Shown here piece after piece: positions 9,449 through 61,419 of a stretch of 64,000 nucleotides of DNA. A program made the translations under genes and the position numbers. Each line of letters opens with the position of its first letter. Positions within the stretch are counted from its first letter, which is position 1. The stretch spans positions 62,001 through 126,000 of the forward strand of contig NZ_JAPFPW010000006.1 of assembly GCF_026155325.1 (NCBI RefSeq), written 5' to 3'. The DNA comes from Desulfobotulus pelophilus (lineage in GTDB: Bacteria > Desulfobacterota > Desulfobacteria > Desulfobacterales > ASO4-4). The notes below the pieces were generated by a model, which did not search any database, had not been told where the DNA came from, and saw nothing but the letters and a program-made list of their open reading frames with translations.

Positions 9449-9650
9449 ATTACCTCCTTATTGGATTAACTGTTACCGTGTCAGGCCCCGATTTCCAAGC
9501 AGTGCCCATATACTTGCAGAGTAAAAGAAAAACAGAAAAAATCCATCAAAAAGCGACGCTTCTGCCAGTAAAAACATGCTACAATTGAAAAAACATAACC
9601 GGCATCCGCCGGAATGCACTCCTGCTGCCACCTTTTTTGAAAGAAAACAA

Positions 9651-10787
9651 ATGGGTTTTCCTCCGTCAGAAAACGAAATATCCCTCTTCCGGGCAGCCCT
9701 TCTTGAATGGTTTCACCAGAACAAAAGGGATCTGCCATGGCGCAGAACCCGGGACTCTTATGCCATATGGATTTCAGAGGTCATGCTGCAGCAGACCCGC
9801 GTAGCCACGGTCATTCCCTATTTTACCTCATTTATACGCCTATACCCTACCCTTGAGGCCTTGGCCACGGCGGACCCGGAAAGGCTTCTCAAAGCCTGGG
9901 AGGGACTCGGCTATTACAGGAGACTCCTGAATGCAAAAAAAACTGCCATTCTCCTCACGGAACGAGGAGAAACCTCACTGCCTGAGAGCAGAAACAGCCT
10001 GCTTCAGCTCCCGGGTATAGGAAGCTATATTGCCTCCGCCGTTTGCTCCATAGCCTACGGCCATAGGGACGCTGTGGTGGACGGGAATGTAAAAAGGGTT
10101 ATGGCGCGACTGTTTACCGATCCGTTTCCTGCTAATGGCTCCAGCCACCGGCATTACCAGCCCTATGCCGACCTGCTGCTGGATCCATTGAATCCCGGAG
10201 ATGCCAACCAGGCCATCATGGAACTGGGAGCTCTGGTCTGCACACCGGCAAAACCTCAATGCCCTATCTGCCCTGTCTCGTTTTTCTGCAAAGCTTTCGA
10301 TCAGGGAACAACAGGGCTGTTTCCTGTCCGAAATACAAAAAAGAAAGTGCCACTTTATCATATTGCCTGTGCGGCTGTTGTGGATGTTATGGGAAACATT
10401 CTTGTAACCAAACGACCGGATTCGGGTATGTTGCCAGGATTCTGGGAATTTCCCGGCGGAAAATGTGAAAAAGGAGAAAGCAATGAAGTGGCCTGTATCC
10501 GGGAAGTTTATGAAGAAACGGGACTGACTGTGACAAACCTGCACCACCTGTGCACCATTGACCATGCCTATAGCCATTTCCGGATCCGTCTGGCCCTTTT
10601 TGGCTGCCCTGCACCAGGCTTGGAAGTCCGCCTGACCCACGCGGTTGATTTTCGCTGGATTCCCAGTGCCGAGATGAAAACACTGGCCTTTCCAGCAGCC
10701 AATCGCAAATGCATGCCTGCCCTGCTCAGATGGCTCCAGAATCAACCGGACAACTTCTTTTCTCCCCCATGCAGACAGTCCGATTAA
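9651..10787 (+). CDS. mutY: A/G-specific adenine glycosylase MutY
   Basis: This DNA repair enzyme removes adenine mispaired with 8-oxoguanine. It has 378 residues from the ATG at MGFPPSENE, preceded by GAAAGAAAA; an upstream in-frame ATG (9576) would add 25 non-conserved residues. The HhH-GPD domain has LPGIGSYIASAV (helix-hairpin-helix) and AVVDGNVKRV with the catalytic Asp. The [4Fe-4S] loop is complete, C-x6-C-x2-C-x5-C in CTPAKPQCPICPVSFFC. The C-terminal NUDIX-like domain (from ~residue 235) retains a full-looking Nudix box, GGKCEKGESNEVACIREVYEETG, giving 8-oxoG recognition. Monocistronic, followed by a strong hairpin (10816) and a MITE-like insertion. Confidence 0.95.
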   Translation: MGFPPSENEISLFRAALLEWFHQNKRDLPWRRTRDSYAIWISEVMLQQTRVATVIPYFTSFIRLYPTLEALATADPERLLKAWEGLGYYRRLLNAKKTAILLTERGETSLPESRNSLLQLPGIGSYIASAVCSIAYGHRDAVVDGNVKRVMARLFTDPFPANGSSHRHYQPYADLLLDPLNPGDANQAIMELGALVCTPAKPQCPICPVSFFCKAFDQGTTGLFPVRNTKKKVPLYHIACAAVVDVMGNILVTKRPDSGMLPGFWEFPGGKCEKGESNEVACIREVYEETGLTVTNLHHLCTIDHAYSHFRIRLALFGCPAPGLEVRLTHAVDFRWIPSAEMKTLAFPAANRKCMPALLRWLQNQPDNFFSPPCRQSD

Positions 10788-10866: not shown

Positions 10867-10971
10867 TACTAATGAGTTCCTTTCCCACTCGACATAGATA
10901 AAGCCCCGGTTCCTTTTATGGGAATTGAAAACGAGATGGTTTTGTCGAGACAAGTTTTGAACTCTTTCGTA
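10867..10971. mobile_element. MITE-like element with IS630-type terminal repeats and TA flanks
   Basis: A 101-bp non-coding block (10869-10969) lies between two TA dinucleotides. Counting the TA, its left end matches the right end of the IS630 element at 60308-61405 at 23 of 29 positions, including CCCACTCGACAT; its right end, read inverted, matches the same IS end at 16 of the first 18 positions and then diverges by one inserted base before CTCGACA. The interior has no transposase sequence. This is the pattern of a non-autonomous element moved by an IS630/Tc1-type transposase. Confidence 0.65.
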
Positions 10972-11180: not shown

Positions 11181-11909
11181 ATGAAAAAAATTGTAATAAT
11201 CCCCGCCCGATGGGGTTCCAGCAGACTGGAAGGAAAACCCCTGATGCCCATCAAAGGGCGTCCCATGATCCAGCATGTGTACGAACGCTGCCGTGCTGCT
11301 GCTGTAGATGCCGTTGTGGTAGCAACGGACGATACCAGGATCGCAAAAGCAGTGAAAGATTTTGGTGGCAGGGCTGTCATCACTTCTGCCGACAACAGGT
11401 CCGGAACGGACAGAGTCGCGGATGCCGCGCGGATCCTAGGCCTTGATCCCGGCGATATTCTTGTGAATGTACAGGGAGACCAGCCTCTTCTGCATCCTTC
11501 CTGTATCAATGAGGTCACACGACCCCTGGAGCTGGATCCATCCCTGTCCATGAGCACGCTGGGCTTCATCATTCAGGATCCGAGAGAAATCAGTGACCCC
11601 AAAGATGTAAAAGTTGTACTGGATAGTAAGGGCAATGCCCTGTACTTCTCCCGCGCAGCCATCCCCTTCCCACGGGATGACGGGACTGCCTGTTCCTATA
11701 TTAAGCACCTCGGCATATATGCCTATAGCGTTCACTTTCTGAATATTTTTATGAGCCTTCCCACCGGTACACTGGAAGAAATCGAAAAACTTGAGCAGCT
11801 CAGGGCTTTAGAGCATGGATACAGCGTACGGGTTGTCATGACAGAACATGACTCTCCTGAAGTCGATCTGCCGGAAGACATTGGACGTATTGAAAACAAA
11901 ATGATGTGA
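11181..11909 (+). CDS. kdsB: 3-deoxy-manno-octulosonate cytidylyltransferase
   Basis: This enzyme activates Kdo with CTP to CMP-Kdo for lipopolysaccharide inner-core synthesis. It has 242 residues, normal for KdsB. Motifs are IIPARWGSSRLEGKPL (nucleotide-binding signature at the N-terminus), VVVATDD, SGTDRVADA, VNVQGDQPLL with the metal-binding Asp, and the C-terminal EKLEQLRALEHGY and SPEVDLPEDI. The ATG at 11181 is chosen because CGGAGGATTG directly precedes it; upstream in-frame codons show no conservation. A single gene here, not accompanied by other Kdo genes, and it indicates a Gram-negative outer membrane with Kdo-containing LPS. Confidence 0.96.
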   Translation: MKKIVIIPARWGSSRLEGKPLMPIKGRPMIQHVYERCRAAAVDAVVVATDDTRIAKAVKDFGGRAVITSADNRSGTDRVADAARILGLDPGDILVNVQGDQPLLHPSCINEVTRPLELDPSLSMSTLGFIIQDPREISDPKDVKVVLDSKGNALYFSRAAIPFPRDDGTACSYIKHLGIYAYSVHFLNIFMSLPTGTLEEIEKLEQLRALEHGYSVRVVMTEHDSPEVDLPEDIGRIENKMM

Positions 11910-60246: not shown

Positions 60247-61361
60247 AGGGGTTGGCTTGGAATTTTTCGCCGCCAGATCAGGCCACAGGTTTCTCTTATT
60301 ACACATACTAATTGGCTCATAACGCACTCGACATTAAGCCAAAATATACTGAGTGTCTTGTTCTCTAAAAAACTGGCAACTTTTATGGTTTGCTTTTGCA
60401 ATGATCTCAATATAGAAAAGGCCTTTTTTTTGAGATCTTCCGGTCCTGAAACAACCATCTTTCCAATCTTGTGATGTTTCAGGTATCCCCATACCATTTC
60501 ATCCGGGTTCAAATGGGGTGAGTATGGAGGCAGGAAGAATAAACGGAGCCTTCCAGCCGTTTCTTCAACAAATTTATTGACCTTGCCTGATTTATGGACG
60601 GGATGCCCGTCCACAATGAGAAAGACAGGAGAATCAGCTTTGTAAATCAGACGTTTCAAAAATGAGATGAACTTATCGGAATCCATTTTTCCATCAATGG
60701 TCATGAACCGGAGTTCCCCCGAGGGAGTGATAGCCGAAACCATGTTGATACCAAAGCGAGCCCCCGTTTTTTCAACGACGGGGGTGACTCCTGTGGGAGC
60801 CCAGGTCGTCCCACTGTGGTAGTCTGATCTTACGGTTGATTCATCGGCAAAAAAGATTTTTGCATTCTCTTTTTCAGCTTGCTTCTTGATTTCCGGGAAT
60901 TTGTTTTGAACCCATTCCTTTACCCGGTCTTCGTCCCTCTGCCAGGCTTTTTTTAAAGGCTTCTGCGGCGAAAAACCAACTTTTTTCAAAAGACGACCGA
61001 CAGTGGCATTACTTATGGAAACATCGAACTCCTTTTTGATAAACTCCCGAATCATTTCACGGGTCCACAGCGCAAATGGGAATCCGTAGTCCATAGGATT
61101 TTTATCCGCTATCTTCCAGAAAAGCTCATCAAAATCTTTGGTCTGGAACTTAACGGGCCGACCTGAGATCGGTTTCGTCTTTAAAGCGTCAAGGCCGCCT
61201 TTGCGGTATTTGGCTATCCACTGGTAAATTGCGGATCGATGGTAACCCAGAGCCCTGGCGATAACCTCTGGGCTTTCACCCGATTCGATCTGCTGCACGG
61301 CGCGTATGCGGATAGCCTCACGGGTCTTATGATCGAGTTTTCTAGCGTCTTGTTTTTTCAT
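60108..61361 (-). CDS. IS630 family transposase (open frame continues past the IS end)
   Basis: The 417-residue frame includes a transposase of about 350 residues. An N-terminal HTH (ESPEVIARALGYHRSAIYQWIAKYRKGGLDAL) is followed by a DDE core: FFADESTVRSDYHSGTTWA, FLIVDGHPVHKSG and FFLPPYSPHLNPDEMVWGYLKHH, giving D, D and E. The first ATG (61361) is preferred to a TTG nine bases earlier. Within the IS the frame has no stop codon; it crosses the left terminal repeat and continues ~200 bases antisense to the end of mqnB. The core looks complete and active. Confidence 0.9.
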   Translation of the reverse strand: MKKQDARKLDHKTREAIRIRAVQQIESGESPEVIARALGYHRSAIYQWIAKYRKGGLDALKTKPISGRPVKFQTKDFDELFWKIADKNPMDYGFPFALWTREMIREFIKKEFDVSISNATVGRLLKKVGFSPQKPLKKAWQRDEDRVKEWVQNKFPEIKKQAEKENAKIFFADESTVRSDYHSGTTWAPTGVTPVVEKTGARFGINMVSAITPSGELRFMTIDGKMDSDKFISFLKRLIYKADSPVFLIVDGHPVHKSGKVNKFVEETAGRLRLFFLPPYSPHLNPDEMVWGYLKHHKIGKMVVSGPEDLKKKAFSILRSLQKQTIKVASFLENKTLSIFWLNVECVMSQLVCVIRETCGLIWRRKIPSQPLQGWIAALRREPTPSAALRKAVFRSQSSFLRVPAGLLTLRSSRMGI

Positions 61362-61419
61362 AAGCAGCAATATACATCATGTCGAGTGGGTTTTGAACTT
61401 TTTAGTAAGAGAAACCTGT
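60285..61419. repeat. hairpin interrupted by the IS630 insertion
   Basis: Left ACAGGTTTCTCTTA (60285-60298) and right TAAGAGAAACCTGT (61406-61419) are exact complements. Joining the flanks without the IS gives a 14-bp stem with a 7-nt TTACACA loop and a TA at the loop/stem junction where the element entered. Thus the target was a palindrome just after mqnB. Confidence 0.8.
60306..61407 (-). mobile_element. IS630-family insertion sequence, complete
   Basis: The element spans 60308-61405 (1098 bp), bounded by TA at 60306-60307 and 61406-61407, the family's target duplication. Including TA, the ends match as 29-bp inverted repeats at 23 of 29 positions, sharing CACTCGACAT internally. It contains one transposase gene. 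Orientation is minus. Confidence 0.88.

Follow-up and report, generated by a model that had tools for sequence, protein, structure and literature searches.

A RUP-like IS630-type MITE family in Desulfobotulus, probably mobilised in trans by an IS630 transposase of the genus

How did a short non-coding block whose ends resemble those of a resident IS630 element come to lie between a mutY-like and a kdsB-like gene of Desulfobotulus? In the window, i.e., the whole 64,000-nucleotide stretch of DNA analysed here, the block occupies positions 10867 to 10971 on the plus strand. It measures 105 bp from TA to TA, with 101 bp between the two TAs. The mutY-like gene (9576 to 10787, plus strand; HhH-GPD plus NUDIX_4) is located upstream, and the kdsB-like gene (11181 to 11909, plus strand; cytidylyltransferase) downstream. 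The left terminal repeat, TACTAATGAGTTCCTTTCCCACTCGACAT (10867 to 10895, plus strand), agreed with the right end of the IS at 23 of 29 positions and with its left end at 22 of 29. The right terminal repeat, TACGAAAGAGTTCAAAAC... (10943 to 10971, minus strand), was degenerate and matched the IS right end at 16 of its first 18 positions; its tip reads TACG in place of TACT, and there is a small length change before CTCGACA. A sequence-only reading had described a 101-bp block with TA at both ends in the mutY-kdsB spacer and had counted end matches of 23/29 and 16/18 to the IS630. The coordinates were confirmed, and both counts were exact. Its further statement that the interior is unrelated to the IS630 also held, as the similarity ended at about 29 bp.

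The IS630 element itself lies at 60306 to 61407 on the minus strand and is the sole full copy in this genome. It is 1102 bp long including both TAs, and its terminal repeats are alike at 23 of 29 positions. The transposase region (60357 to 61361, minus strand; 335 aligned amino acids) carries DDE_3 plus a helix-turn-helix. The same lineage occurs in all three Desulfobotulus genomes, namely, the genome of the window (G000), G001 (very likely Desulfobotulus alkaliphilus ASO4-4), and a third genome (G002). The G002 protein, which is 95% identical to the resident one, matched NCBIfam NF033545 IS630 with an E value of 2e-75. The resident element interrupts a 13-bp palindrome at the edge of its loop, between two convergent genes, with the left arm CAGGTTTCTCTTA (60286 to 60298, plus strand) read directly from the sequence and the right arm TAAGAGAAACCTG (61406 to 61418, plus strand) including the IS-flanking TA. 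This palindrome is possibly a former transcription terminator. The preference for palindromic targets suggested by this site was not seen for the MITEs.

When the window was scanned with the IS right end, the left end of the block was the best match outside the IS's own ends (23/29), and the runner-up reached 18/29. As a null for the end match, random 29-mers from the window were compared with the IS ends, giving a mean of 8.7 and a maximum of 19 of 29. With a TA target and ends like those of an IS630 of the same genome, the block is an IS630-type MITE.

A covariance model of the family was built from 14 copies and applied with a count threshold of E<=0.001. It detected 11 copies in G000, 19 in G001, and 5 in G002, for a total of 35. 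At the same threshold, all three Desulfobotulus genomes were positive, and 93 further genomes of the order gave 0 matches. The search for further copies that the earlier reading had proposed therefore yielded about 35 across the genome and the genus. The copies were dispersed, non-coding, and mostly 104 to 107 bp long, with imperfect terminal inverted repeats of about 27 to 29 bp. Two subfamilies differed in their interior, namely, A (...CCCCGGTTCCTTTTATGGGAATTG...) and B (...ACCTGATCATTGTGATCAGATCTG...). The window copy, including both flanking TAs, belongs to A and scored 109.5 bits (E value of 5e-18 in its own genome). Among 37 aligned copies, which include two weak or truncated ones, the TA was kept at the left end in 31, at the right end in 23, and at both ends in 21. 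In the genome of the window, the copy on contig C2 was 96% identical to the window MITE and had the right terminal repeat TACTAAAGAGTTCAAAACGCTCTCGACAA, which agreed with the IS right end at 25 of 29 positions; the copy on C15 was more diverged.

The likeness to the IS was confined to the ends. The end consensuses of the subfamilies agreed with the IS630 ends of the three genomes at 21 to 26 of 29 positions, and the right end of the window MITE matched the IS ends less well than the consensus ends did. An internal-deletion derivative of the resident IS was rejected, since the likeness stops at about 29 bp and a search with the whole IS found only end fragments at a MITE. As the interior is not IS sequence, the element is classed as an end-sharing MITE rather than as a remnant of internal deletion. 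The earlier interpretation, a non-autonomous derivative mobilised by the same transposase, was largely supported, but the word derivative calls for caution, since the likeness to the IS is limited to the ends and the interior did not arise from it by deletion.

Empty sites were searched for by comparing joined MITE flanks with the three Desulfobotulus genomes. The MITE on G001 C10 had exact empty sites with a single TA in both G002 C9 (98% identity over the joined flanks) and G000 C10 (97%), reading ...GAATTTGTAT-TA-AG(C/T)AAGCAACTG..., and the MITE on G001 C19 had an exact single-TA empty site in G002 C7 (91%). For the MITE on G001 C4, the syntenic locus in G002 C14 was empty but not base-exact. 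At the window locus, G001 kept mutY and kdsB without the insert, in a spacer too diverged for base-by-base alignment, and in G002 mutY was missing beside kdsB. The locus of the C2 copy was syntenic in both relatives, where the spacer was shorter and lacked the insert. The single-TA empty sites anticipated by the sequence-only reading were therefore found in exact form twice, for copies of the sister genome and not for the window copy. These results demonstrate a TA target and a 2-bp duplication for the family, and the empty sites show past mobility of the MITE within Desulfobotulus. In all, the elements are MITEs that are short, non-coding, and multi-copy, with terminal inverted repeats and a target-site duplication evidenced by empty sites.

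The MITE on G001 C10 interrupts an ORF of the four-helix-bundle family TIGR02436, a gene that looks broken in G000 and G002 as well. This gene and its surroundings (L092:1-1000, L112, and L113) were 92 to 98% identical across the three genomes. For kdsB, the identity between G000 and the other two was roughly 70%, and the difference suggests a recent horizontal exchange of the TIGR02436 region.

Movement by cut and paste is a property of the IS630 family. We consider it likely that the block is an IS630/Tc1-mariner-type non-coding MITE of about 105 bp that was moved in trans by a Desulfobotulus IS630 transposase. Under this model, the MITE would carry only the presumed transposase-binding ends of such an IS630, and the transposase of the IS would act in trans, cutting the MITE out, pasting it at a TA, and duplicating that TA. 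The repeat family, the shared ends, the TA target, the 2-bp duplication, and the co-occurrence with the IS were all observed here and support this account; from them we infer mobilisation by the resident IS630 transposase.

A different source for the transposase should also be considered. The left end of the MITE (CATTTCCCACTCGAC) differs in a constant way from both IS ends; the true partner may therefore be an IS630 relative that is extinct or distinct from the resident one. This would be another IS630 of the genus, now lost or unsampled, with left ends CATTTCCCACTCGACGTAGATAAA, and the resident IS would be a cousin of it. Consistent with this, the motif CATTTCCC recurs almost unchanged in the left ends of the MITEs and is absent from every IS end seen. 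However, the right-end consensuses agree with the IS ends of the resident lineage at 25 to 26 of 29 positions, and the three Desulfobotulus genomes yielded no further DDE_3 transposase with similar ends. A DDE_3 search returned only the resident lineage in G000 and in G001, where a diverged fragment was the sole addition. The surroundings of an additional, unrelated IS630 in G002 contained no MITE-like ends, and transposases of about 50% identity in other Desulfobacterota had ends that were only partly similar. In general, we regard a lost mobiliser as unlikely.

Far less probable is a conserved structured RNA or a regulatory intergenic sequence whose likeness to the IS ends is coincidental. 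Some single copies do fold better than their shuffles (z of -1.8 to -4.3), as expected from inverted ends, but Rfam gave no match, RNAalifold found no consensus structure over 34 copies, and the exact empty sites carry a single TA. Only subfamily B showed a 5-pair hairpin, which lies in the right end. A regulatory RNA was rejected on the lack of an Rfam match and of a common fold, and the idea that the MITE carries a promoter or terminator was rejected because no such site lies inside the element. Chance likeness of a unique intergenic block to the IS ends would be allowed only by the raw comparison of a single copy within the window; the null test of the end match and the genus-confined family of about 35 copies speak against it. 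The copy number and genus specificity rule out chance similarity, and we give it practically no weight. Spread on phages or plasmids was also considered; there was no match in phage and plasmid collections, and no match to the 19-bp core in viral contigs. A selfish, non-autonomous element remains the simplest explanation.

The state of the IS copies counts against trans mobilisation by the Desulfobotulus IS630, the preferred reading. Compared with the G001 and G002 copies, the last dozen residues of the resident transposase are out of frame, so that its ORF continues across the left terminal repeat and into host DNA as far as 60108. The full copy in G001 has a TAG stop in the DDE region. In G002, one copy of the lineage is intact, with its transposase at C1:136559-137563, and two carry a stop. 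Because the copy in G000 and the full copy in G001 look damaged, current mobility in the genome of the window is doubtful. The window MITE is probably fossil or dormant, given the altered C terminus of its genome's only IS copy and the mutated tip of its own right end.

Among known elements, the closest case is RUP of Streptococcus pneumoniae, a 107-bp repeat with TA termini and IS630-Spn1 as the proposed mover (PMC2229807, PMC3049150). RUP and the Desulfobotulus MITE are near-identical in length, non-coding, and bounded by TA, and the ends of each resemble those of an IS630 in the same genome; for both, mobilisation in trans is proposed and genes are occasionally disrupted. They differ in sequence and host, in copy number (about 108 to 110 copies of RUP versus 5 to 19 per genome in Desulfobotulus), and in the terminal repeats, listed as 9 bp for RUP versus about 27 to 29 bp here (PMC2229807, PMC3049150). 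The Correia/NEMIS repeats of Neisseria are likewise small, with terminal repeats of about 24 bp and a terminal TA (PMC2229807), but their sequence and host differ and no regulatory motif was found in the Desulfobotulus MITE. Insertion sequences of the IS630 family and Tc1-mariner share the TA target, the duplicated TA, and the terminal repeat sequence with the MITE, whereas the MITE lacks a transposase gene and has an interior unrelated to theirs. The window block is thus a member of a RUP-like, non-coding IS630 MITE family, which is new, of a kind already known.

Some terminal repeats also contain a second, palindromic Desulfobotulus repeat, a 57-bp unit (CAACCCACGCCGTGTTACGGCGTTTTGTCATAAAGTAACTTTTGAAGTTACTCAGAAG) with two hairpins, which also has a 134-bp variant. 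It gave 44 matches in G001, 17 in G002, 4 in G000, and none in 17 other genomes. Its loci include L030:1270-1470, L032 (~1802), L090 (~1920), L094 (~1623-1757), L018:1039-1230, and L046 (~2028). Copies lie at AAG|TT, among other places some 10 bp within IS630/MITE terminal repeats (TACTAAAAAG|TTC), and the repeat also forms tandem copies of itself. We tentatively suggest, at somewhat long odds, that the IS630/MITE terminal repeats serve as a landing site for this unrelated repeat at AAG|TT, followed by insertion into its own end, which would yield the tandem arrays. If true, the repeat would be a small, site-specific parasite of transposon ends, which it might silence. Standalone 57-bp repeats adjoin a further repeat, roughly 200 bp long or longer, that ends in GTGCTGAACAG and whose interior was found in both orientations; it lies to the left of the 57-bp repeat in L131, L132, L134, L137, L138, and L027. 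In addition, an integron attC-like sequence, TAACGCTACGCTCTGCGGC...CAGCAGCGTCTTGTTAG (L100:907-975, G002 C15), is interrupted by a MITE at the first of its TAs, and this sequence is repeated in G000 C4, G000 C11, G002 C12, and G002 C39.

A literature search for Desulfobotulus together with insertion sequences or MITEs found nothing. The present analysis documents an IS630-linked MITE family, including exact empty sites, in a sulfate-reducing genus. With it, some 35 short non-coding blocks are explained, as is the splitting of at least one gene. No concept is changed by this family, which helps annotation and offers a tractable case for trans mobilisation.
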